A stretch of 36,633 nt of DNA. Origin: Desulfobacteraceae bacterium. Lineage in GTDB: Bacteria; Desulfobacterota; Desulfobacteria; Desulfobacterales; ETH-SRB1. Made by a program: the position numbers and the translations under genes. The first letter of the stretch is position 1; the number at the start of each line of letters is the position of its first letter. Shown here in pieces: positions 5,270-32,676 of the stretch. The stretch spans positions 1 to 36,633 of the forward strand of contig VMSQ01000212.1 of the NCBI GenBank assembly GCA_013792055.1, given 5' to 3'. Below the pieces are notes generated by a model. That model was given only the letters and a program-made list of their open reading frames with translations. It was not told where the DNA came from and made no database searches.

Positions 5270-6451
5270 TCAACAACTCTCACAAGTATCTTTTACACCT
5301 GAGACTTCTTCCTTAACGCCCACAGCGACCTTGAATAGAATTGTTAATACAAAAAATCCGGTTGCCCATACGCCAAGGGTGATAAGGATTTCAGGCAGCG
5401 TAGGCATATATTCAGTAACACGATGAAGCGGGTTGGGTACAAAACCGCCTGAAATCATACCCATGCCCTTATCAATCCATGTACCGATAAATAATATTGC
5501 GCAAGCAAAGGCAAGTACACCCTCATGCTTTCTTGCAGCAGGGATTACCAGTAAAACAATGCTTGTAACCATAAGAGCCATTGATGTCCACATCCATGGG
5601 ACTAGCGCATGATATCCATGAAACCCGACAAAAAGATATTGAAGGTGAGACATATGACTCGGTATTCTACTGTAAAATACCACAAATACTTCACAGAGAA
5701 GGAAAAATACATTTATAATTATGGCGTAAGTAACTATCTTGGCCAAAGATTGAATCTGCTCTCTTCCTGGATCAAACTTAGTAAACTTTCTGATTATAAG
5801 GCACAACAAAATTAACAATGCAGGACCGGCAGCAAAAGCCGAGGCAAGAAATCTTGGTGCAAGAATTGCGGTAAGCCAGAATCCTCTTCCAGGCAAACCA
5901 CAGTAAAGAAACGCCGTAACTGTATGTATGGCTGGAGCCCATATGATCGATGTAATTATCAATGGTTTCACCCACGGCGCATAATGGACATTGTTTCGTT
6001 CAGCCTCAAGAACATTCCAGCCGATAACTATATTTAACAAAAGGTACACATTTAATACGATCATATCCCAGAAAAGGACGGAATTTGGTGTGGGGTATAG
6101 CATAACATTAAATATCCGCATCGGCTGCCCAAGATCTACAATAATAAACAATATACACATTGTAACTGCAGCAATGGCCAAAAACTCTCCCAGAATCGTA
6201 ATTCTGCCGAATGCCTTATAATCGTGCAGATATCTGGGCAGAACCACCATAACACCACCAGCAGCCACACCGACAAGAAATGTAAACTGAGCGATGTAAA
6301 AACCCCAGGAAACATCTCTGCTCATGCCTGTTATTCCCAATCCGAAATCAAGCTGCTTCAGGTAAACAGCAAAGCCTACACCCATAAAAGTAAGCAATAC
6401 GATTACCAATCCCCAGTATTTCCTGTCTCCTTTAAGCGCTAATTCAAGCAT
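5270..6451 (-). CDS. dsrP: DsrP, NrfD-like membrane subunit of DsrMKJOP
   Basis: Integral membrane quinone-interacting subunit of the DsrMKJOP complex, family NrfD/PsrC. It has 393 residues and about ten hydrophobic segments, starting with a stretch near 15-30. Family-like features include the arginine-containing FWDMIVLNVYLLLN region and FIGTWIDKGMG. The C-terminus ends DTCESC, with two cysteines close together. GAGGTGG precedes the ATG, and the gene starts 12 nt after dsrO stops. It is the last gene of the operon, followed by the shared terminator. Confidence 0.95.
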   Translation of the reverse strand: MLELALKGDRKYWGLVIVLLTFMGVGFAVYLKQLDFGLGITGMSRDVSWGFYIAQFTFLVGVAAGGVMVVLPRYLHDYKAFGRITILGEFLAIAAVTMCILFIIVDLGQPMRIFNVMLYPTPNSVLFWDMIVLNVYLLLNIVIGWNVLEAERNNVHYAPWVKPLIITSIIWAPAIHTVTAFLYCGLPGRGFWLTAILAPRFLASAFAAGPALLILLCLIIRKFTKFDPGREQIQSLAKIVTYAIIINVFFLLCEVFVVFYSRIPSHMSHLQYLFVGFHGYHALVPWMWTSMALMVTSIVLLVIPAARKHEGVLAFACAILFIGTWIDKGMGMISGGFVPNPLHRVTEYMPTLPEILITLGVWATGFFVLTILFKVAVGVKEEVSGVKDTCESC

Positions 6452-6463
6452 AAAACCACCTCA

Positions 6464-7255
6464 TCATACTATGTAGTAAACAGACGGCCCAGCACCGAGA
6501 TCTGGTTTACGTCGAATAGTGTAATTTGATCTTAACAATTCTCTTACTTCTGACTCGGGATCTTCAAGATCACCGACCACCATCGCTCCATTTGATGCCT
6601 CAACACAGGCAGGCATTTTACCGACAGCCAGTCTCTCAGCACAGAAATTGCACTTTTCCACAACACCCTTCATCCTTGTTGGGAATTCCTTGTTTTCCTC
6701 TTTGATGAAAGGACGGGGATCTCTGAAGTTAAAACTTCTCGATCCATACGGACACGCCGCCATGCAAAATCTGCATCCAATACACCTGTGAAAGTCCATC
6801 AAAACAATCCCGTCATCCCTTTTAAACGTAGCTTTAGTAGGACATGCTCTGACACACCCAGGTTTCTCACAATGATTACATAATACCAGGAACGGCAGAT
6901 GTTTAATTCTGTCATTAATTAACTCATGTTCCATGTGAGTAAAGACATGCTTGTACTCATCCTCCCAGAGCCACATGATCTTATGTCTTGGCTCTGTAAG
7001 ATTGGGAACATTATGAGTTTTATGGCAGGCCTCAATCATCGGTTCAAGATCTTCTTTTGAGTGAAATTTCCTGGTATCTATTACCATTCCCCATCTTTTG
7101 GCTATGAGGGCCTTTTCATTTTTATAGACTTCGGGTTTGGGCTCTTCAGCTTTTCCTCCTGATGCAGCAAATACATCAAGAACGGGCTTCGTCCCTAACC
7201 CTAAAGCTGTTATTCCAGCTACTTTCAAGAAGCTTCTTCTGTTGCTGTTTTCCAT
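6464..7255 (-). CDS. dsrO: DsrO, Tat-exported periplasmic iron-sulfur subunit
   Basis: Periplasmic ferredoxin-like subunit of DsrMKJOP, thought to pass electrons between heme protein DsrJ and membrane subunit DsrP. It has 263 residues and a twin-arginine signal NRRSFLKVAG at the N-terminus. Cysteine clusters follow for several [4Fe-4S] centres: CNHCEKPGCVRACP, CIGCRFCMAACP and CNFCAERLAVGKMPAC. The ATG shares its A with the dsrJ stop codon (TAATG). Its Shine-Dalgarno GGAGG lies inside the 15-bp repeats that encode the DsrJ tail. Export needs the Tat system, and tatA/tatC are at 34.1-35.2 kb. Confidence 0.96.
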   Translation of the reverse strand: MENSNRRSFLKVAGITALGLGTKPVLDVFAASGGKAEEPKPEVYKNEKALIAKRWGMVIDTRKFHSKEDLEPMIEACHKTHNVPNLTEPRHKIMWLWEDEYKHVFTHMEHELINDRIKHLPFLVLCNHCEKPGCVRACPTKATFKRDDGIVLMDFHRCIGCRFCMAACPYGSRSFNFRDPRPFIKEENKEFPTRMKGVVEKCNFCAERLAVGKMPACVEASNGAMVVGDLEDPESEVRELLRSNYTIRRKPDLGAGPSVYYIV

Positions 7256-7680
7256 TACTTATTCTCCTCCGGCTTATTCTCCTCCGGCTTCTTCTCCTCC
7301 GGCGCTATGTGGCAAGTCCAGCAGTAAGGTGCTACCGAGGCATAATTATGACATTTATCACAAAACTCGGTCTTACTTTCATGACATCCCAGACATGACT
7401 CTTCACCACTGGAAAGACTCATTCCAAATGTCTTTCCACTGCCGCTCTTGTAAGCCCTGTTTGCATCCCGCACTACTGTGTCTCTCCACAGGTCAAGAAT
7501 CTGCATATGCTCCTGTCTCATAATTTCTTTAGGCTTAACACATTCTTTTGCAGCTTTTGCCTTTTCAGACAGCTTTAGCTCAGGCGCTGAGGATGCTTTT
7601 CCCAAATTATACCAAAAAGGAAATGTTACAATAGCAATAAAAACAATTAGCCCAAAAGTTATCCTGTTCTTATCATTCAT
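7255..7680 (-). CDS. dsrJ: DsrJ, triheme cytochrome c subunit
   Basis: Periplasmic triheme cytochrome anchored by an N-terminal helix (about 7-25). It has three CXXCH motifs, at 96-100 (CLGCH), 107-111 (CDKCH) and 120-124 (CWTCH). Cys47 in KECVKPKE sits where the Allochromatium protein has its cysteine heme ligand, so an unusual His/Cys heme is likely. The start is the ATG at 7680: GGAGG lies 9 nt upstream and the gene overlaps the dsrK stop by 8 nt, whereas an upstream in-frame ATG at 7716 lacks that support. The tail PEEKKPEENKPEENK comes from a 15-bp tandem repeat. It is the third subunit gene of dsrMKJOP. Confidence 0.95.
   Translation of the reverse strand: MNDKNRITFGLIVFIAIVTFPFWYNLGKASSAPELKLSEKAKAAKECVKPKEIMRQEHMQILDLWRDTVVRDANRAYKSGSGKTFGMSLSSGEESCLGCHESKTEFCDKCHNYASVAPYCWTCHIAPEEKKPEENKPEENK
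7258..7302. repeat. 15-bp tandem repeat x3 in the dsrJ 3' end
   Basis: Three copies of CTTATTCTCCTCCGG (7258-7272, 7273-7287, and 7288-7302 with one mismatch). On the coding strand each unit is CCGGAGGAGAATAAG, coding PEENK and containing GGAGGAG, a Shine-Dalgarno core. The nearest one serves dsrO, whose ATG is at 7255. Confidence 0.9.
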
Positions 7681-9301
7681 CAGCTTCATCCTCCATGCCT
7701 GGTAAATCTTCGCCACGCAGATTCACTGTTTTTTTCTTTTCTCCAGGTATTATCAAGGCATTAGCTACCATCTCGTGAAGACCGGTGACATCGACTTCAG
7801 GAACCCAGTATTGCATAAGAGGTGGAAGCACTGCCCTGTCAATAGCGCAAACACAGGCCAGCATATTTACCCCGTGTTTTTCATGCACATATTTTACTGC
7901 GTTAGCTCTCGGCAAACCTCCTGATAATCTCAGTTCCATGTCTTCACTTGCGTTAAGTCCTGATCCACTGCCGCAACAGAAGGTCTGCTCTCTGATGCAG
8001 TTTATTGGCATGTCATAAAAATTATTACATACATTCTTTATTACATACCGTGGTTCATCAAACATCCCCATTCCCCTTGATGTATTGCAGGAATCGTGAA
8101 AGGTAACCTTTAAATGATCATTACGTTTAGGATCAAGGTTAAGTTTGCCGTGCTTGATAAGGTCAGCAGTAAATTCAGCAATATGTACCATCTTTGTGAC
8201 TTTTGCATTCTCAAATTTAGTGCCGGTTATAGGATTAACCGGTTCCTCAAGGAAATCAGCCGGCCCGTTCATCGTAGCCATATACTGATTGATAACACGC
8301 CACATATGCCCGCATTCACCGCCAAGTATCCATTTTACACCAAGTCTCTTGGCTTCTGCATACATTTTAGCGTTCAGCCTTTTCATTACCTCGTTAGAAG
8401 TAAAAAAGCCGAAGTTACCGCCCTCTGAAGCATAGGTACTCCATGTTATACTAAGCCCGTAATTCACTTTTAAATAATGGTGAAGTATCATATATCCCAT
8501 AGCAGTAAAGGTGCCCGGATCGCCAAACACATCACCGGATGGAGTGATAAAAAGAATGTCAGCTCCTTTTTTATTGAATTGAGGCTCAACCCTTACGCCG
8601 GTTACTTCTTCAATTTCATCAACAAAAAAATCCATCATGTCTTTGAATGCATGCGGCTGGATTCCCATGTGATTTCCTGTTTTGTAGCAATTTGAGACCG
8701 GGGTTGCAATCCAGTCTATGTTTAGCCCCAGAAGATTAAATATCTCCCTGGCCATCATTGTTATTTCCGCTGTATCAATACCATAAGGACAGAATACCGA
8801 ACATCTCCGGCATTCAGTGCACTGAAAGAAATAATACCACCACTCTTTCAGGACATCCAAAGTAAGCTCTCTTGCACCGGCCAGCTTGCCAAGAATTTTA
8901 CCGGCTTTAGTAAAATCGTTCCTGTATACCGACCTCAAGAGTTCGGCTCGAACAACAGGCATGTTTTTGGGATCGCCTGTTCCAATGAAAAAATGGCATT
9001 TGTCAGCACAGGCGCCGCAACGCACGCAAATGTCCATGAAAACTTTGAATGATCTAAACCTTTCCAGCCTGTCCCTTAGCCCCTCAAGAACAATCTCCTT
9101 CCAGTTGGCAGGAAGTTTCCAGTCATCATCAAGCGGATTCCACTCTCTTGCGTATGGCAGGCCAAGTGTTTCAACACTTGGCGGTTTAGCGGCATAACAA
9201 AACATCCCCGCTCTAATTACAGTAGGGGTGTCCATCCACCCTGTACTGGGCGGAGTATAATCTATCCTTGCAATTAATTCATCTGGTTTTAAGTTTGCCA
9301 T
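7673..9301 (-). CDS. dsrK: DsrK, HdrD-like catalytic iron-sulfur subunit
   Basis: Cytoplasmic subunit related to heterodisulfide reductase HdrD, believed to act on the DsrC trisulfide made by DsrAB. It has 542 residues. Two [4Fe-4S] motifs are at Cys92/95/98/102 (CVRCGACADKC) and Cys161/164/167/171 (CTECRRCSVFC). The C-terminal half holds CCG-type cysteines (FHDSCNTSRG, then FCCGSGSG) that ligate the special active-site cluster in this family. The ATG overlaps the dsrM stop as TAATG, and the 3' end overlaps dsrJ by 8 nt, so M, K and J are translationally coupled. Confidence 0.96.
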   Translation of the reverse strand: MANLKPDELIARIDYTPPSTGWMDTPTVIRAGMFCYAAKPPSVETLGLPYAREWNPLDDDWKLPANWKEIVLEGLRDRLERFRSFKVFMDICVRCGACADKCHFFIGTGDPKNMPVVRAELLRSVYRNDFTKAGKILGKLAGARELTLDVLKEWWYYFFQCTECRRCSVFCPYGIDTAEITMMAREIFNLLGLNIDWIATPVSNCYKTGNHMGIQPHAFKDMMDFFVDEIEEVTGVRVEPQFNKKGADILFITPSGDVFGDPGTFTAMGYMILHHYLKVNYGLSITWSTYASEGGNFGFFTSNEVMKRLNAKMYAEAKRLGVKWILGGECGHMWRVINQYMATMNGPADFLEEPVNPITGTKFENAKVTKMVHIAEFTADLIKHGKLNLDPKRNDHLKVTFHDSCNTSRGMGMFDEPRYVIKNVCNNFYDMPINCIREQTFCCGSGSGLNASEDMELRLSGGLPRANAVKYVHEKHGVNMLACVCAIDRAVLPPLMQYWVPEVDVTGLHEMVANALIIPGEKKKTVNLRGEDLPGMEDEADE

Positions 9302-10302
9302 TACAACTCCTTTTCCACTGGGAGTCCAGCTTCTATCATTTTCTCCCTAAAATCATCTTCATATGCTTGATATGTATGTATCTTAACTTCAGGATTCCAC
9401 GGATTTATGTGCCTATAAGCTCTGGTGTTGGTTGGAAGATTCCTGGTCGGACTCAGGAATACTCCTCCCATATGCATCAGCTTACTGAATGGGAAATACG
9501 CCAGCAGAACACTGACAAAAAATACATGGACATAAAAAATAGCACCAATGCCTTCTGGAATGTGTGGATGAAATGTTACCAGACCCATTGTCAGCTCTTT
9601 AACGCCAACGATATTTACCTTTGTAAAATAACGCATCATTATTCCTGATACGGCAATACCGATAATAAGGAATAAGGGGAAGAAGTCTGCGGCAAGTGAA
9701 AAATATCTTATTTGCGGAATTAATATTCTTCTGAGGAGCAAAAATATTACCGCTGCGAGAAGAACTACACCGGAAATCAGGACACCAGGCAGCCCGATCT
9801 GGAGAAATCCGTCAACTTTTTCAAGAATTTGAAGCAAAAAAGGAACGGGCTCAAGGAAAAAACGCAGATGTCTTATCAGCGTTGTAAGAAATGCATAGTG
9901 AAATGCCAGTGAAAACAACCACAACCACTTTTCCCATACATAGGAAATCCTTGGCCCCTCGTTCATTTTGCATTTGGTATTCCTGAATAATGACCGAAAG
10001 AATAATATTTCCAGAATCATTCTTATAACGACGGCACCCCCTGTAAACGGGTTGTCTATTTTATTATGTTTGATCCATGGAAGTGACTTCTGCTGGCCGC
10101 ATGTTGTAGGAATTCGGAATGGAACTGGAGAACTCGCCCAGTCCATGATTCGCATTGCAAATCCCACAACAAATGTAATTATGGCCAGATAAGGGATAAT
10201 AATCCCGAATAGATACTGAAGCCCTGCTGCTTCAACGCCCGCATAGGCAAGCAGAAAAAGAGCAATAACTGCTATGAGGGAATACAAGTACTTTTCATTC
10301 AT
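9301..10302 (-). CDS. dsrM: DsrM, membrane cytochrome b subunit
   Basis: NarI-like diheme cytochrome b that oxidises menaquinol and passes electrons to DsrK. It has 333 residues from the second ATG (10302), with about six hydrophobic segments and a cytoplasmic tail of about 50 residues. I chose 10302 because GAGG lies 8 nt upstream; the in-frame ATG at 10308 is only about 2 nt from that site. It follows the RsbRD-type gene by about 80 nt and couples directly to dsrK. Confidence 0.93.
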   Translation of the reverse strand: MNEKYLYSLIAVIALFLLAYAGVEAAGLQYLFGIIIPYLAIITFVVGFAMRIMDWASSPVPFRIPTTCGQQKSLPWIKHNKIDNPFTGGAVVIRMILEILFFRSLFRNTKCKMNEGPRISYVWEKWLWLFSLAFHYAFLTTLIRHLRFFLEPVPFLLQILEKVDGFLQIGLPGVLISGVVLLAAVIFLLLRRILIPQIRYFSLAADFFPLFLIIGIAVSGIMMRYFTKVNIVGVKELTMGLVTFHPHIPEGIGAIFYVHVFFVSVLLAYFPFSKLMHMGGVFLSPTRNLPTNTRAYRHINPWNPEVKIHTYQAYEDDFREKMIEAGLPVEKEL

Positions 10303-10384
10303 TAACATTACCTCGCTCTATGGCTTCACAGCAACTTTCAAATTTTACTTGCTGCTTGAAGCCTCCATAGTAATATTTGAATCT

Positions 10385-13940: not shown

Positions 13941-15224
13941 ATGAATGTTCTGCTGATTGAAATAAACCCTTTTGTACAGGAAACAACACCTATCTCGCTG
14001 GGATACATTGCCTCCTTCCTCAAATCCAAAGGCTTTGGTGTAAAAATATTGTCTATTGGACAGAACACTTCCTTATCGCGTTCTGCTTTTCACGAAATTA
14101 TACACAGCTTTAAACCTGCTCTGGTTGGATTTTCCGCCTATCAGAGAATTATGCTATATATAATAGGACTCGCCAAATTCATAAAATCGATCGACAATAA
14201 CATTAAAATAGCCATAGGCGGCCCACAGGCCACCTTTATGCCCTCGGCTGCTTTTGCAGAGCTACCCGATGTAGATTATATATGCCGTTCTCCGGGCGAA
14301 ATTACCTTGCTGGGAATTGCGCAAGCTATTGAGAATGGAACACCTTTTTTGAATCTTTCCGGTGTCAGTTACAAAGATGACAATGATGCTGTTCTTGATA
14401 CACCGGAACTTGAAGGCTACACAGATTTAGATCGTTATCCCTCAGCATATCTGAATGACGTTTTTGATTATTCGCGTATGCGGGAGGCAATTATGCTGAC
14501 ATCTCGAGGATGTCCCCACCACTGCATATACTGTTACACCCCCCATGCCTTCAAACACAAAATAAGCTACCATTCCGTAGAAAGGGTCATTGAAGAAATT
14601 AGATGGATAAGAAAAAAGGGAATAAAAAGTCTTTGGTTTGCTGATCCGAATATTTCTTATAAACCGTCACGGCTTATAGAGATTCTTGATGGAATTTTAC
14701 AAGAAGGCATTGAGACTGAAATCTGGTTACAAACTCGTGTAGATCTTGTAACTCCGGAGTTGCTGAAAAAGATGAAAAGGGCAGGTGTAAAAACCATTGC
14801 CTTTGGACTTGAATCAGCCTCAGAACGTGTCCTGTCAAGGCTTGGCAAGCATATAACTCTTGACAAGGTAGCTGAAGCAATCAGACTTGCCCAGAAGCAT
14901 GGTATAGAAGTTGAACTTTTTACCATATATGGCCTCCCCTATGAAACCTTTGAGGATGCGGTGAAAACCCTGGAGTTTGTGAAGAAAAACAAGGTCAAGA
15001 TAATGGGCAATACAAACTCCCAGCAATTGCAAATCTATTTTGGCACACATATGGCTCGACACTATGAGGACTACAATATACGCCCCTTGAACAACAACCG
15101 CCCGGCATATCTGTCCATCGGTTCTCAGTACGAAACCGACCACATTGGCCGCAATGAGTTACACCAGATTCAACAACTGTGGCAGGCCAATTCAATAGAT
15201 GGTGGGAAACGAATTGTGTCGTGA
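13941..15224 (+). CDS. B12-binding-domain radical SAM protein, substrate unknown
   Basis: It has 427 residues. The N-terminal part (about 1-130) looks like a cobalamin-binding Rossmann domain of the BchE/methyltransferase type, without the DxHxxG ligand motif (GFSAYQ...IAIGGPQATFMP). The radical SAM core has the CxxxCxxC cluster at Cys191, Cys195 and Cys198 (RGCPHHCIYCYTP), followed by FGLESASERVL and IYGLPYETFEDA. No C-terminal SPASM cluster is present. The ATG at 13941 is chosen because upstream in-frame starts are only TTG; no clear Shine-Dalgarno is visible. It is followed 48 nt later by a SPASM-like/TPR gene, suggesting a two-protein enzyme. Class is firm; reaction unknown. Confidence 0.88.
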   Translation: MNVLLIEINPFVQETTPISLGYIASFLKSKGFGVKILSIGQNTSLSRSAFHEIIHSFKPALVGFSAYQRIMLYIIGLAKFIKSIDNNIKIAIGGPQATFMPSAAFAELPDVDYICRSPGEITLLGIAQAIENGTPFLNLSGVSYKDDNDAVLDTPELEGYTDLDRYPSAYLNDVFDYSRMREAIMLTSRGCPHHCIYCYTPHAFKHKISYHSVERVIEEIRWIRKKGIKSLWFADPNISYKPSRLIEILDGILQEGIETEIWLQTRVDLVTPELLKKMKRAGVKTIAFGLESASERVLSRLGKHITLDKVAEAIRLAQKHGIEVELFTIYGLPYETFEDAVKTLEFVKKNKVKIMGNTNSQQLQIYFGTHMARHYEDYNIRPLNNNRPAYLSIGSQYETDHIGRNELHQIQQLWQANSIDGGKRIVS

Positions 15225-15272
15225 TAAGATAGCGAATTGGTTTCTGAATAGGGTAAAGGACTAAATAAAATA

Positions 15273-16805
15273 ATGATTCCTGCCTTTAATAAAATATATA
15301 TAATACTTGGAAAACACGACAATGAAAATCTTGAATGGGTTTTGCGGACTTTATCGTTCCTATATTCATATGTTAACCTGACATCAAATATTTATCTTGT
15401 ATCGGAAAATCTTCCTGACAGCATGCCCCAGGTGGAACGTATCCAGAAAAATATCAACGAGTTTCTCAGCGAAAACCTTTTTGCCAGGCTCTATGTACAT
15501 ATTGTCCATCCTACCCCGCAACCAGCCATGAATGGCATAACGCTATGTTATCAATACCTGAAACAATCGACTGACAAATTTGACCAGGAAGGTTACATAC
15601 ACCAGGAACTGCCAAGGCTTATATCACTGCCGGTTCTTGTTCCAGATGATGAATGCAAGCCGACCCAACTTATAGATCTACTTAATGTGCTAAAAAATTC
15701 TTTTTTGTTGCCCAGCCTTTACCTGAACAAAGATACTTTAAATCTGGCAAAAGATGAAAAGCTTCTGTCTTTGACGGACAAAGTTTACTATGGCATTGGA
15801 AACTCCAGAAAGATGACAGACGTTGTTTATAATCTATTTTGTCAAGATATCATTGATGATTCATTGGACAAGTTAGAGAATAACGATTTATCCATGACAG
15901 ACCCTTGCCCTGATTCGCTCATTATCTCGGCTCAAAATTGTAATGTTTACAGTTGTATGGAAGCATTTCTCAAAAATGAAAGCCTGGCAAAAATTTATGG
16001 GATACATAGTTTGGAAGAACTCCTGGCCCATTATTATAAACAAGACAAATCTAAAAGAGACTGCCTTGGATGCAGAGAAAAGGTGATTGGTTCTTCTGTA
16101 GATTTGCCCAAGTCTCTTGACACGAACCAAAAGACAGGAGCGTTGCTCTATCATTTTGGAATGTTACGCCAGGAGTCGGAAGACGATTTTCAGGCCGTAA
16201 AAAACTTTAAGCAATCCCTGGAGCTCTCTCCGATTGAAGAAACCGATCCTATTTATTTCCGACTTGGCCTTGGATACACCAAGATTGGGCAGTACGATCA
16301 AGCTCTTAAAGCCTTTAACAGCGTTGAACTAGGATACCAAGGTCAATATTTTTTCCATTTTTATAAAGGGCTTTGTTATTTTGAAACAGGAGACTATGTC
16401 ACAGCTCTGGAAGAATTTTCAAAGGCCTTGCAATCTGAGACTCAACATGATGACCGGATCAGGATTTTGATCTATATGGGAACATGTTTCAACAACCTTG
16501 GCAACTATGAGCAGGCCGTGGGCGAATTGGAAAAAGCCAAGGAAACGGCAGGCCATGTGAAAGAGATTTATAATACTCTTGGCTTTTCTTATTTCATGAT
16601 TAAAGACTATGATAAGTCTATTGAAAACCTTAAAATGGCTGTTGAAATCGATCCTTTTTCTGCTATTGATTATGCCAGTCTTGGATCTAATTACCGTGAA
16701 AAAGGAGATCTTAACACGGCAATCGGGATGTACGAAAAAGCCTTGGCATTGGATCCAGGCATGACATCTGTAAGGGAAAATCTTGAAAGGCTGAAAAAGC
16801 TATAA
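15273..16805 (+). CDS. Protein with SPASM-like cysteine cluster and C-terminal TPRs
   Basis: A 510-residue protein. Residues 1-205 are unassigned (alternating strand/helix pattern from NKIYIILGKHDNENLEW, no CxxxCxxC). Residues 212-267 resemble the end of a SPASM domain: Cys212, Cys223, Cys228, then Cys264 and Cys267, with the usual order of LIISAQNCNVYSC, SLEEL and CLGC. Residues about 290-505 are TPRs (for example LGLGYTKIGQYDQALKAF and LGSNYREKGDLNTAIGMYEKAL). No signal peptide or membrane segment. It lies in the same direction as the radical SAM gene. One reading is an auxiliary-cluster and peptide-recognition partner of that enzyme; the domain call is by eye. Confidence 0.7.
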   Translation: MIPAFNKIYIILGKHDNENLEWVLRTLSFLYSYVNLTSNIYLVSENLPDSMPQVERIQKNINEFLSENLFARLYVHIVHPTPQPAMNGITLCYQYLKQSTDKFDQEGYIHQELPRLISLPVLVPDDECKPTQLIDLLNVLKNSFLLPSLYLNKDTLNLAKDEKLLSLTDKVYYGIGNSRKMTDVVYNLFCQDIIDDSLDKLENNDLSMTDPCPDSLIISAQNCNVYSCMEAFLKNESLAKIYGIHSLEELLAHYYKQDKSKRDCLGCREKVIGSSVDLPKSLDTNQKTGALLYHFGMLRQESEDDFQAVKNFKQSLELSPIEETDPIYFRLGLGYTKIGQYDQALKAFNSVELGYQGQYFFHFYKGLCYFETGDYVTALEEFSKALQSETQHDDRIRILIYMGTCFNNLGNYEQAVGELEKAKETAGHVKEIYNTLGFSYFMIKDYDKSIENLKMAVEIDPFSAIDYASLGSNYREKGDLNTAIGMYEKALALDPGMTSVRENLERLKKL

Positions 16806-16822
16806 AAAAATTTCTGACAAGG

Positions 16823-17518
16823 CTATCCTTTTACTAACATAGTAGAAGGGTCTAGAAGCAATTCGGGATAATCACAAGCCGCAGGTACTCCCTTTAGCGC
16901 TTTAACATGAATTTCTTTTCCTTCAGGCTGAAGCTGAATAATAATATCAAAAAGATCAGTTACATTTAAAAGAGAAACCGGCATACCATTAGGACAGGGC
17001 TCTTCATGGCGGTGTGTCCTGACTGTAAACCAGACATGCATGGAATGACTTTCTGCAAGCTTTTTTAATTCCGCTAGAGATTCTCTCATGTCTTTATCAA
17101 ATGGAAGACCATCAATAAGAATTGCCTGTGGCAAAAAAATTTTCTGCTCTATCAGATCGGTTAGCCTTTCCTCAAGTTTTGGCACGCTAAAACCATCTAC
17201 CTTAAATGTCATTATAAGCCGGTGCGATACTATGGACTCCCATAACTGATCTGTCTGACTAAGGTTATACTGATCCGCAATATTTCGAAACACTTCTTCA
17301 TACCACAAACAAACTTTTTTTACTGAATCATCCAAACTTATATGAAGAACATTTCTGCTTCTCAGAAGACCGTCTAAAGCCAACTGCACAAGGATTGCCG
17401 TTTTACCTAAACCAGCCCGCGCCAGCACGGCACCAAACCCTCCTGGCTGAAGAATATTCTCTGTTTCATGGCCCATAAGCCTCAGAGGATTACGGAAGAT
17501 TAACTCCTTTTTTAACAT
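16823..17518 (-). CDS. RecA/KaiC-like P-loop ATPase, function unknown
   Basis: A 231-residue protein from the ATG at 17518, which has AAGGA 8 nt upstream; an upstream in-frame start at 17572 lacks a ribosome site. Walker A is ARAGLGKT at 33-40 after a GGFGAVL strand. The Walker B-like ILIDG is at 133-137. A later strand-helix HVWFTVRTHRHEE follows. The pattern fits a single RecA-fold domain as in KaiC/GvpD-like ATPases, but it is too short for a two-domain KaiC. It converges on the SPASM-TPR gene with only 17 nt between stops. The first 10 residues carry no signal. The exact family is not recognised. Confidence 0.65.
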   Translation of the reverse strand: MLKKELIFRNPLRLMGHETENILQPGGFGAVLARAGLGKTAILVQLALDGLLRSRNVLHISLDDSVKKVCLWYEEVFRNIADQYNLSQTDQLWESIVSHRLIMTFKVDGFSVPKLEERLTDLIEQKIFLPQAILIDGLPFDKDMRESLAELKKLAESHSMHVWFTVRTHRHEEPCPNGMPVSLLNVTDLFDIIIQLQPEGKEIHVKALKGVPAACDYPELLLDPSTMLVKG

Positions 17519-17585
17519 ATTGGAATTCCTTTCTTTAAGGTAAATGATCTTGTTGCTTGTCGCTGTTCTCATCCAGATACCATCT

Positions 17586-28455: not shown

Positions 28456-29769
28456 ATGGCAAAACACAAAACCCCTTTGATTGACCAGCTAGAAACTGGT
28501 CCGTGGCCAAGCTTTATATCCGATATAAAGCAGGAGGCCGCGTCAAGGGCAAAGAATGAAAAGGGTTTAGACTACCAGGTACCCCAGGATATCTGTGAGG
28601 ACCTCTTGGGAGTGCTTGAGCTTTCCTACAAGGATGGAAGAACTCACTGGAAACACGGCGGAATCGTCGGTGTATTCGGTTACGGCGGCGGTGTTATCGG
28701 AAGATACTGTGACCAGCCGCAGATGTTCCCGGGTGTTGCACATTTCCACACCATCCGCGTAAACCAGCCCTCAGGCAAATACTATACAACCAAATTCCTT
28801 AATGATCTTATGGATATCTGGGAACTGCGCGGAAGCGGTATGACCAACATGCATGGCGCTACCGGTGATATCGTTCTTCTCGGCACAACAACACCCCAGT
28901 TGGAAGAAATCTTCTGGGAATTAACCCACAATATGAACACAGACCTTGGCGGCTCCGGTGGCAACCTGCGAACTCCTTCCTGCTGTCTTGGAACATCACG
29001 CTGTGAATATGCCTGCTACGATACCCAGGAACTGTGCCATTTCATGACCAATCATTATCAGGATGAGCTTCATCGTCCGGCTTTTCCATATAAGTTTAAA
29101 TTCAAATTTGACGGATGCCCTAACTGCTGTGTTGCATCCATTGCGCGTTCAGACTTGTCCTTTATCGGCACATGGCGCAATGATATCCGTATTGACCAGA
29201 AAGCGGTAAAGGCTTATGTCGGCGGTGAAGTTCCTTCAAACGCAGGAGCCCATTCAGGACGTGACTGGGGTCCGTTTGACATCCAGAAAGAAGTTGTTGG
29301 CCTCTGTCCTACCGGGTGCATGCGATATGAAGGTGGAAAACTCGAGATCAACAACAGAGAATGCACCAGATGTATGCACTGCATTAACACAATGCCCAGA
29401 GCTCTTAGGGTTGGCACAGATAAGGGCCTATCTATATTTTGTGGCGCAAAAGCCCCGATTCTCGATGGAGCACAAATTGCTACTCTGCTTGTTCCTTTTG
29501 TAAAAGTTGAAGAGCCTTATGATGAACTCCATGAGTTAATTGGAAATGTCTGGGACTACTGGATGGAAGAAGGAAAGAACAGAGAGCGGGTGGGCGAATT
29601 AATCAAACGTCAGGGCTTGCAGAAGATGCTTGATAAATGCAACCTGAAACCGATTCCGCAGCATGTTCTAGAACCTCGTGCCAACCCGTATATTTTCTGG
29701 AGAGAAGATGAAGTTCCAGGTGGTTGGAAGCGTGATATCGTTGAATTTAGAAAACATCATCAAAGATAG
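28456..29769 (+). CDS. dsrA: Dissimilatory sulfite reductase, alpha subunit
   Basis: Alpha subunit of cytoplasmic DsrAB, which reduces sulfite and hands sulfur to DsrC as a trisulfide. It has 437 residues, full length. Family cysteines for the siroheme-[4Fe-4S] region are in [14 protein letters not shown] and GCPNCC. The inserted ferredoxin domain shows CPTGCMRY then [24 protein letters not shown] is a typical stretch. GGAGGT lies 8-9 nt before the ATG. It is first in dsrA-dsrB-dsrD-dsrN, with a 13-nt gap to dsrB. Identification is firm. Confidence 0.99.
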
Positions 29770-29782
29770 GGGGGAAATTACC

Positions 29783-30928
29783 ATGGCATTTATATCTTCA
29801 GGTTACAATCCTGATAAACCGATGGAAAACAGAATAACCGACATCGGTCCAAAAAAGTACGATAATTTTTACCCTCCGGTTATTGCAGCAAATAAGGGTA
29901 AATGGTTATATCATGAAATCTTGGAACCAGGCGTTCTGGTACATGTTTCTGAAACAGGGGATGAAGTATATACTGTAAGAGTCGGTGCTGCTCGTCTCAT
30001 GAGCATCACCCTGCTCCGTGAAGCATGCGAAATCGCTGATAAACATTGCGACGGACACCTGAGATTTACTACCAGAAACAACATTGAATTCATGGTGGAC
30101 AGTAAAGATAAGGTTGAACCTCTAAAAAAGGATCTTGCCGGCAGAAAATTTGCTGCAGGAAGCAACAAGTTCCCAATTGGCGGTACAGGGGCCGGCATTA
30201 CCAACATCGTGCATACCCAGGGCTGGGTTCACTGTCACACCCCGGCAACCGACGCATCAGGCACAGTAAAAGCAACGTTGGATGTGCTTTATGACCAGTT
30301 TACAGACATGAAGCTGCCTGCTAAACTCCGCGTTTCAATGGCGTGCTGTCTTAACATGTGCGGCGCTGTTCACTGCTCAGATATTGCGATTCTCGGATAT
30401 CACCGCAAACCGCCACTTCTTGACCATGAATATCTGGACAAAATGTGCGAAATTCCTCTGGCTATTGCAGCATGTCCGACCGCAGCAATCAAGCCTTCTA
30501 AAATTGAAATAGGTGGCAAAAAGCTAAACACTGTTTCAGTTAACGAGGACAGGTGTATGTACTGCGGTAACTGTTACACAATGTGCCCCTCAATGCCTCT
30601 GGCTGATACCGAGGGTGACGGAATAGTAATCATGGCAGGCGGTAAAATATCCAACAGAAGAAGCGCACCCAAGTTCTCCAAGTGCGTTGTTGCATTTATT
30701 CCGAATGAACCGCCTCGCTGGCCGACCATGACAGCAACAATCAAGAGAATTGTTGAAGCATATTCAAGTGGTGCAAATAAATACGAGCGTGTCGGTGAAT
30801 GGGCGGAAAGAATCGGCTGGGAAAGATTCTTTGAAAAATGTGAGATTGATTTCACACATCATCTCATTGATGATTTCCGTGATTCTGCCTATTACACATG
30901 GCGTCATACAACAAACTTTAAGTTCTAA
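29783..30928 (+). CDS. dsrB: Dissimilatory sulfite reductase, beta subunit
   Basis: Beta subunit of DsrAB; it carries the catalytically active siroheme in characterised enzymes. It has 381 residues from [20 protein letters not shown]; the ATG at 29783 follows a GGGGGG ribosome site, and longer in-frame openings lie inside dsrA. Motifs: [43 protein letters not shown] and the ferredoxin motif [12 protein letters not shown] perfect stem-loop separates it from dsrD. Identification is firm. Confidence 0.99.
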
Positions 30929-30945
30929 TTACATTAAACAATACG

Positions 30946-30971
30946 CCGGAGGCAAATAATTTTGCCTCCGG
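30946..30971 (+). promoter_or_regulatory. Perfect 11-bp stem-loop between dsrB and dsrD
   Basis: CCGGAGGCAAA (30946-30956), loop TAAT, TTTGCCTCCGG (30961-30971). No T-run follows, and the dsrD ribosome site comes soon after. It fits a processing or stability element, or a leaky attenuator lowering dsrD relative to dsrAB, better than a full terminator. Confidence 0.7.
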
Positions 30972-30993
30972 TATAAATTTAAGAGGCTTAATA

Positions 30994-31245
30994 ATGGCTA
31001 TATCAATTGATGAACAAGCAGCAAAAGATATAATTGTAGAAGCTCTTAAGGGTAAAAAGGGCAAAACAAAATTTTATCTTAAAGATTACTATAAAATGCT
31101 TCCCGATGAAAAACTTATGGATGTGAAGAGACTTGTAAATCAAATGGTAAGAGAAGAAATCCTGGAATACTGGTCTAGCGGAAGCACAACTTTAATTGGA
31201 CTCAAAGGTCTCGGAAAGCAACACGCCACCGAAGAAGATGAGTAA
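30994..31245 (+). CDS. dsrD: DsrD, allosteric activator of DsrAB
   Basis: A small winged-helix protein of 83 residues, shown in sulfate reducers to bind DsrAB and raise sulfite reduction. The sequence has the expected FYLKDYYKMLPDEKLMDVKR helix region and the EEILEYWSSGSTTLIGLKG wing. AAGAGG precedes the ATG. Presence of DsrD marks the reductive, not oxidative, direction of the Dsr pathway. It is followed 12 nt later by dsrN. Confidence 0.97.
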   Translation: MAISIDEQAAKDIIVEALKGKKGKTKFYLKDYYKMLPDEKLMDVKRLVNQMVREEILEYWSSGSTTLIGLKGLGKQHATEEDE

Positions 31246-31257
31246 GATTATAATTTA

Positions 31258-32676
31258 ATGCAGCAAGAAAGTATGGATTTCCCCGGAATCGTTATTGCAG
31301 CCTTGAGAGGTGGATCGGGAAAGACCATACTGTCCATAGGAATAATTGCTGCGTGGAAAAATCTTAAAAAAATTGTTGCCCCCTTTAAAAAAGGTCCGGA
31401 TTATATAGATGCCGGCTGGCTTGCTATGGCGGCCGGCCGGCCCTGCTACAATCTTGACACCTTCCTCGTAGAAGATAAGCAAATCCTCAATTCATTTTAT
31501 ACCCATACATTAAAAAGTGATATAGCTGTTGTAGAAGGAAATCGCGGGCTATACGATGGCCTGGATGCAGAAGGAAGCACCAGCACTGCTGAGCTTGCAA
31601 AACTTCTTAATCTGCCTGTAATCCTGTGCATAGATTGCACAAAGAGCACGCGAACCATGGCTGCAGTTGTGTTGGGATGCGTCGAATTTGATCCGACCGT
31701 ACCCATCAAAGGTATTATATTAAACCGTGTTGCAGGATCGAGGCATGAAAACATTGTTCGCAAAAGTATTGAAAACTACTGCGGAATACCGGTTTTGGGT
31801 GCTGTCCCAAAGCTTAAAAAGCAAAATTTTCCTGAAAGGCACATGGGGCTTATCCCAACTCCAGAACATGAATGGGCAAATGATTCAATAAATGCTGCAC
31901 TTAAAATGGCTAAAAGCTATATTGATCTTGACGCATTAACCAAAATTGCTTGCGATGTTTCTTTTCAACGACCATCTGCAATCACGCATCCGAAATCCGA
32001 AATCCGAAATCCGAAATCAGTAAGGATAGGCATAATTAAGGATTCCGCTTTTCAGTTCTACTATCCTGAAAATATTGATGCACTTGTTGCGGCAGGTGCA
32101 GAAACAGTATTTATAAGCCCGCTTAAAACAAATAAAATACCACCTATAGATGCTCTCTATATCGGCGGCGGCTTTCCTGAAACCCATGCTAAAGAATTAT
32201 CAGAAAACGAGCAATTCAGAAATGAGTTAAAGGCATTGGCTGAAGACGGCCTCCCAATATACGCTGAATGCGGGGGGTTGATGTATCTGGGAAAAGAACT
32301 TGTTCTTGATAACAAATCATATCAAATGGCAGGAGTTCTGCCTGTTGTATTTGGCCTTTCCAAAAAACCAAAAGGACACGGCTATACAATCATTTCAATT
32401 GAAAGAGAAAACAAGTATTTCAAGAAGGGAAGCGAAATCAGAGGCCATGAGTTTCACTACTCATACGTTCTTGAATGGAAAGGAAATGATGAGGATCTGG
32501 TTTTTAACATGAAAAGAGGAAATGGTTTTATTAATAAAAAAGACGGCATATGTTATAAAAATGTGCTCGCCACATACACCCATATTCATGCCCTTGGTAC
32601 CCCCTCATGGGCAAAGTCTATGGTCAGCAATGCAATTTCCTACAAAAAAATCAAAAAAACAGGGCAAACATCATAA
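31258..32676 (+). CDS. dsrN: DsrN/CbiA-type a,c-diamide synthase
   Basis: Glutamine- and ATP-dependent amidase of the cobyrinate a,c-diamide synthase family. Next to dsrAB, homologues (DsrN) are linked to making siroamide, the amidated siroheme. It has 472 residues. The N-terminal ATPase has P-loop ALRGGSGKT near 15-23 and KKGPDYIDAGW. The C-terminal GATase domain has AECGGLMYLG with the nucleophilic cysteine, RGHEFHYS, and THIHALGT near the end. The linker between domains contains a heptamer repeat array (31988-32018). The last codons overlap a terminator for the opposite strand. A cobalamin role is the alternative. The ATG at 31258 has a weak ribosome site; 31273 is possible. Confidence 0.9.
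   Translation: MQQESMDFPGIVIAALRGGSGKTILSIGIIAAWKNLKKIVAPFKKGPDYIDAGWLAMAAGRPCYNLDTFLVEDKQILNSFYTHTLKSDIAVVEGNRGLYDGLDAEGSTSTAELAKLLNLPVILCIDCTKSTRTMAAVVLGCVEFDPTVPIKGIILNRVAGSRHENIVRKSIENYCGIPVLGAVPKLKKQNFPERHMGLIPTPEHEWANDSINAALKMAKSYIDLDALTKIACDVSFQRPSAITHPKSEIRNPKSVRIGIIKDSAFQFYYPENIDALVAAGAETVFISPLKTNKIPPIDALYIGGGFPETHAKELSENEQFRNELKALAEDGLPIYAECGGLMYLGKELVLDNKSYQMAGVLPVVFGLSKKPKGHGYTIISIERENKYFKKGSEIRGHEFHYSYVLEWKGNDEDLVFNMKRGNGFINKKDGICYKNVLATYTHIHALGTPSWAKSMVSNAISYKKIKKTGQTS
31988..32018. repeat. In-frame ATCCGAA heptamer array inside dsrN
   Basis: Four exact tandem copies of the 7-bp unit ATCCGAA (31988-32015) plus ATC. It is translated as HPKSEIRNPKS in the linker between the ATPase and GATase domains. 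Three units make seven codons, so the array can vary in frame by multiples of three units. Confidence 0.85.

Follow-up and report, generated by a model that had tools for sequence, protein, structure and literature searches.

We found that two adjacent genes on the forward strand of a 36,633-nucleotide stretch of DNA (hereafter the window; positions 1 to 36,633 of contig VMSQ01000212.1, GenBank assembly GCA_013792055.1) from a Desulfobacteraceae bacterium of the Eth-SRB1 lineage encode a conserved pair of proteins. These are a B12-type radical S-adenosylmethionine (SAM) enzyme of 427 residues, which we call A (13941..15224), and a protein of 510 residues, which we call B (15273..16805), and the two genes share a reading frame and are separated by 48 nucleotides. 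The A-B pair is confirmed as real and old, and the co-occurrence of its members lies far beyond chance. The most fitting description of B is that of a radical SAM/SPASM protein minus its SAM-cleaving cluster, and we judge it somewhat probable that A and B form a single two-chain radical SAM enzyme, in which B would dock through the C-terminal tail of A and supply an auxiliary cluster in trans, while its tetratricopeptide repeats (TPRs) would recruit a protein substrate. An earlier note on this DNA had proposed a radical SAM enzyme whose SPASM part resides in a second polypeptide, fused to a TPR arm. The separate chain is borne out by the near-obligate co-occurrence of A and B and by the structural match, whereas the idea of a SPASM part alone has to be amended, with residues 1-200 of B being themselves a predicted degenerate radical SAM barrel.

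Using a profile built from near and far members, we surveyed 395 genomes from across the phylum and detected B in 23 of them. In the same sample, unfused A (E at most 1e-100) is present in 21 genomes, and B is present in every one of them (21/21); in genome G428, B adjoins an A gene split by a frameshift. The N-terminal part of B was detected in 15 of 94 relatives, and the named carriers include Eth-SRB1, Eth-SRB2 and Candidatus Desulfaltia bathyphila. Upon comparing the layouts of 49 distinct loci in which both genes lie within reach of each other, we observe A upstream of B on the same strand in all of them, at a distance of at most 476 nucleotides, often with an overlap, in 45, and at 0.9-2.0 kb with an insertion in the other four. 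The flanking genes vary between families while A-B persists. A second A-B pair, whose B has no TPRs, occurs in the window genome (contig C79) and in most other genomes of the genus, and in maximum-likelihood trees the duplicate A proteins form one clade and the duplicate B proteins form one clade, each with support 1.0; therefore, A and B were copied as a unit. The pairwise distances of A and B are correlated (Spearman 0.87), which partly reflects their shared species history, and B has evolved approximately 2.2 times faster than A.

A is a radical SAM enzyme with a cobalamin-binding domain. Its residues 12-124 match the B12-binding domain (PF02310, E 9e-17) and its residues 186-347 the Radical_SAM domain (PF04055, E 2e-29) in Pfam, and the CxxxCxxC motif is formed by C191, C195 and C198, which are invariant across 33 aligned homologues. 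Because these are the only conserved cysteines, A is without an auxiliary-cluster domain, in agreement with what had been noted earlier. The closest curated models in NCBIfam are those of the B12-type radical SAM families BchE, PhpK, ApyD, HpnJ and the methyl-coenzyme M reductase glutamine C-methyltransferase; the last of these (TIGR04014) matches with an E of 2.7e-30. All of these matches fall far under the respective family cut-offs, and none of the NCBIfam equivalogs matches A at its cut-off. Orthologues of A in other families share 50-56% identity. Among the proteins of the window genome that do not belong to a pair, A is most closely related to a B12-type radical SAM protein of 562 residues with a C-terminal TPR match (L236:865-2553, contig C61; 30% identity).

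Next, we investigated the fold of B. The TPRs begin at around residue 290 (16140..16802, residues ~290-510; Pfam TPR_1/TPR_2, E ~1e-28), and residues 1-290 match nothing in Pfam, nor in NCBIfam at an E threshold of 10, with all SPASM matches of B in these two collections falling below significance. An AlphaFold model of residues 1-290, built on a 31-sequence alignment, reached a mean predicted local distance difference test (pLDDT) score of 75 and a predicted template modelling (pTM) score of 0.76. It contains six beta-alpha units in the order E-H-E-H-E-H-E-H-E-H-E-H (strands at residues 5-11, 34-43, 72-81, 116-124, 148-151 and 170-173), beyond which come a short beta element and helices. This predicted (beta/alpha)6 partial barrel, continuing into a SPASM/Twitch element, is the fold of radical SAM enzymes; the degenerate barrel would span residues 1-200 (15273..15872). 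Foldseek listed many barrels, with PqqE having the top TM-score, and structural alignment with VIA-align also placed PqqE first (Z 12.1 over 199 residues at 3.7 angstroms), followed by EpeE, viperin, ChlB, BlsE, SuiB, anSME and CteB, with BtrN also among the best matches. The top 18 chains are radical SAM enzymes only and cover model residues 1 to ~255, whereas unrelated barrels score a Z of ~8, so that the resemblance to SPASM enzymes expected from the earlier note was recovered, over residues 1-255. When a profile of 23 B proteins was searched with hmmsearch against 177,635 PDB sequences, three matches appeared at E<10, namely anSME (0.032) and two BtrN entries (0.048 and 0.056), all over the cysteine region; taken singly, each match is marginal, which does not hold for the fact that SPASM/Twitch enzymes make up all three. 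In four of ten distant B proteins, the highest-ranking NCBIfam match, although sub-threshold, is the SPASM model TIGR04085, at the same place. Upon aligning profiles of B and of five SPASM proteins from the window genome, the correct stretch was aligned, although with a probability of only 37%.

The motif that would make B a radical SAM enzyme in its own right is absent: as the earlier note had seen, B has no CxxxCxxC, and among the 23 homologues there is no conserved cysteine upstream of residue 212, so that, judged from its sequence, B would not belong among the SAM-cleaving enzymes. We read B as a radical SAM/SPASM protein that lost its SAM cluster because the structural and profile matches are there, yet CxxxCxxC is not. 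No similarity was detected between the profiles of B and A, and B therefore did not arise by recent copying of A. Nearly all B proteins carry the block F-x2-EGY-x-HQ-x2-PRL-x4-P at residues 103-120 (window 15579-15632), within which R115 and P120 are invariant, as is H79 outside the block.

The cysteines of B follow a SPASM pattern in part. Five of them (C212, C223, C228, C264 and C267) had been proposed earlier as SPASM-like; we find that all 23 homologues, at identities down to 18%, have C212, C228, C264 and C267, which stand among only nine invariant columns, whereas C223 is not conserved and is replaced in most relatives by a glycine, which is the glycine of the SPASM 'Gx4C' motif. The resulting consensus, C212-x10-G-x4-C228 ... 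C264-x2-C267 (residues 212-267, 15906..16073), corresponds to the first four of the seven cysteines in the SPASM motif Cx9-15Gx4CxnCx2Cx5Cx3CxnC (PMC12093266). The second half of that motif, Cx5Cx3C and the final cysteine, has no counterpart, as B has no more conserved cysteines; since the last three SPASM cysteines are missing, B would hold at most one cluster. In BtrN, the auxiliary cluster has four cysteine ligands (PMC9012708), and B is likewise inferred to be Twitch-like, of the BtrN type, with one putative auxiliary [4Fe-4S] cluster on its four cysteines. The fusion of this region to TPRs, also recorded earlier, holds for the B of the window but is optional, as the TPRs are absent in the paralogous pair and in the Eth-SRB2 group; TPR-less B proteins retain the cysteines.

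We also observe a conserved C-terminal tail in A (codons at 15186..15221, ANSIDGGKRIVS), with the consensus W-x3-S-x-D-x2-[KR]-[RH]-x-V-S terminating in the free carboxylate. In the alignments, the tail is conserved to the final residue in all B-paired A proteins with the exception of one disrupted gene, while the adjoining residues 400-413 are freely variable. A strict form of the pattern is failed by 5 of 68 A proteins, of which two are records of the disrupted gene and three have one-residue differences. Furthermore, in seven genomes of two other families (G110, G147, G182, G210, G237, G193 and G413; loci L168-L174 and L176-L182), the A protein continues into an FKBP-type domain and TPR-like repeats on the same chain, with a length of 787-827 residues; the tail is absent from 7/7 of these fused proteins, and B is absent from those genomes. 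From this pattern of sequence conservation, the simplest explanation of the tail would be that it is a docking site for B. The tail is retained where the partner B has no TPRs; therefore, if it binds B, it would bind the pseudo-radical-SAM part.

From the co-occurrence of A and B, their duplication as a unit, the predicted fold and invariant cysteines of B, and the conservation of the tail alongside B, we infer the following mechanism. A would cleave SAM at its own cluster and bind cobalamin. B may derive from a radical SAM/SPASM ancestor in which the SAM-cleaving cluster disappeared but the barrel scaffold and the four cysteines were kept, and these cysteines would hold one auxiliary [4Fe-4S] cluster. 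Docking of the A tail onto the pseudo-radical-SAM/SPASM part of B could then position this cluster to accept or relay an electron in the reaction of A, and the TPR arm of B, where present, or the FKBP-TPR part in fused A, would hold a protein or peptide substrate, which A would modify by C-methylation or another cobalamin or radical reaction. The target is probably another protein, and we propose a protein substrate because the TPR, FKBP-TPR and disulfide oxidoreductase modules around A all act on proteins. The pair has no conserved small peptide gene next to it, and therefore a secreted peptide product is unlikely.

Several observations weigh against this interpretation. The confidence of the AlphaFold model is low across the CxxC region of B, and single sequence matches of B to SPASM are weak (E 0.03-0.15). 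Outside the alignment of 23 homologues, the B at locus L111 is without the first cysteine, and the B proteins of the family of G094 and G168 are without one or more of the four; because these cysteines were lost, the cluster would not be universal in B. When A and B were modelled as a read-through fusion in a single chain, AlphaFold returned a pTM of 0.46 without a confident interface. In addition, G094 has B while A was not detected there, in G166 A and B share a contig but are separated by 14 kb, the FKBP-TPR-fused relatives of A occur without B, and A-B has no conserved substrate gene beside it.

Some of these points could also suit an arrangement in which A does all the chemistry and B is a chaperone that presents the substrate, with its cysteines binding a structural cluster or zinc and having no electron role. 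The arms around A, TPR and FKBP, are modules that handle substrates, the few B proteins that shed some cysteines still adjoin A, and the lack of Cx5Cx3C means that the second SPASM cluster is gone. However, the four ligands are invariant across very divergent B proteins, their spacing is that of an auxiliary-cluster site, and they persist where the TPRs do not, and we therefore consider such a chaperone unlikely. Less probable still is a role for B as an electron-delivery partner, whose low-potential cluster would reduce the SAM cluster or the cobalamin of A away from the substrate. For the radical SAM protein PapB, a redox step with partner molecules is known (PMC10470005), and two families include genomes in which B is directly followed by a gene for a protein disulfide oxidoreductase; nevertheless, this role is normally filled by a generic flavodoxin or ferredoxin, and it would leave the retained radical SAM barrel and the TPRs unexplained. 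Finally, A and B might be unrelated and held together by operon structure, with both genes lying downstream of aconitase in part of the family, but the flanks change across families while A-B stays, and the co-duplication and the correlation between the tail and the partner speak against it, which makes a mere operon association very improbable.

Upon examining the neighbouring genes, we observe that a RecA/KaiC-like P-loop ATPase of ~231 residues (16823..17518, minus strand) converges with B across a 17-nucleotide gap, as reported in the earlier note; its start at 17518 is better positioned after a ribosome-binding site than the alternative at 17572, and it has no Pfam or NCBIfam match above cut-off. 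Its inclusion as a third component of the system was rejected: of 38 genomes tested in the order, 32 carry the gene, B-less ones included, and it adjoins B only in this genus. The survey of gene neighbourhoods thus upheld the adjacency of A and B homologues, which almost always lie side by side, but not that of the ATPase. In the window, A-B lies between the dsrMKJOP side (dsrP, dsrK and dsrM; 5270-10308, minus strand) and dsrA, dsrB, dsrD and cobB/dsrN (28519-32673, plus strand), and in the distant genome G113 the pair is ~1.1 kb from dsrA. Elsewhere, A-B is far from dsr or on other contigs, and no general link emerged; dsrA is present in 40 of 46 A-carrying or family genomes versus 28 of 34 controls, which were hand-picked and non-random. 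In three genomes of two families, the gene directly after B encodes a protein disulfide oxidoreductase with two thioredoxin folds and an extra C-terminal part (L115:8339-9325, L117:4963-5943 and L119:4807-5793). In family f88, a YcaO-TPR gene, whose TPRs resemble those of B, stands beside fused A, and the window genome has two YcaO-domain proteins (L003:1480-3219 on contig C39, and one on C271, L188), of which that on C39 ends in B-like TPRs. The YcaO-TPR protein was rejected as a coupled partner, since 147 of the 395 genomes sampled in the phylum carry it, without enrichment among A or B carriers. A parallel with uL16 thioamidation (PMC13063428) was likewise dropped because a PDB search at E 1e-10 gave no match between the YcaO-TPR protein and E. 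coli YcaO.

When the pair is set beside known systems, its component parts are known and the arrangement appears new. BtrN and anSME/PqqE have in common with B the barrel-plus-auxiliary-cluster fold and the first four SPASM cysteines, whereas B is without CxxxCxxC, mostly has TPRs and is paired with a separate B12-type radical SAM chain. In the GeoRSP system, a SPASM-type protein is encoded beside a radical SAM/SPASM protein, and A-B resembles it in having a SPASM-type protein beside a radical SAM enzyme but differs in that A is of the B12 type and SPASM-less; B residues 1-290 matched no NCBIfam model at the threshold given above, in a collection whose inclusion of the GeoRSP models is unconfirmed. 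The nearest precedent found is TrnC/TrnD of thuricin CD, where two radical SAM-fold proteins form one complex and only the SAM chemistry of TrnC is strictly essential (PMC12093266). TrnD carries a Twitch domain; it is, however, an active radical SAM enzyme, whereas B has no radical SAM motif, so that A-B is not a system in which both partners carry one. Neither TrnC nor TrnD is reported to be B12-dependent, whereas A is of the B12 type, and the product thuricin is a secreted peptide, whereas A-B has no conserved peptide gene. MgmA and Mmp10 are cobalamin-dependent radical SAM modifiers of methyl-coenzyme M reductase (PMC11796369, PMC8828468), and MgmA has the same B12-binding and radical SAM layout as A but is described as a single chain without a pseudo-radical-SAM partner. 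Pairs of a B12-type radical SAM enzyme and a DUF5825 protein, mentioned for clavusporin-type peptides (PMC12257519), also combine such an enzyme with a separate partner, there in the modification of peptides; B differs in having had no Pfam match apart from its TPRs. A literature search covering SPASM, B12, TPR, FKBP, pseudoenzymes and split systems, with most subscription journals outside its coverage, returned no description of the A-B pair.

Overall, we tentatively propose, at less confidence than the two-chain enzyme itself, that A-B represents a class of cobalamin-type radical SAM heterodimers that had not been described before and is conserved across sulfate-reducing Desulfobacterota. 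In it, the auxiliary [4Fe-4S] cluster would come in trans from an obligate pseudo-radical-SAM subunit, and a cellular protein would be delivered for modification by a TPR arm or, in other lineages, an FKBP-TPR arm. The role of auxiliary clusters in radical SAM enzymes is still debated, and if the proposal is true, the SAM cluster and the auxiliary cluster would reside on separately purifiable proteins, each of which could be assayed, mutated and measured electrochemically alone. B would also be the first case, as far as the searched literature goes, of a radical SAM pseudoenzyme maintained as an obligate partner, and the pair points to a protein modification in sulfate reducers, including the partners of anaerobic alkane oxidisers (Eth-SRB1 and Eth-SRB2).

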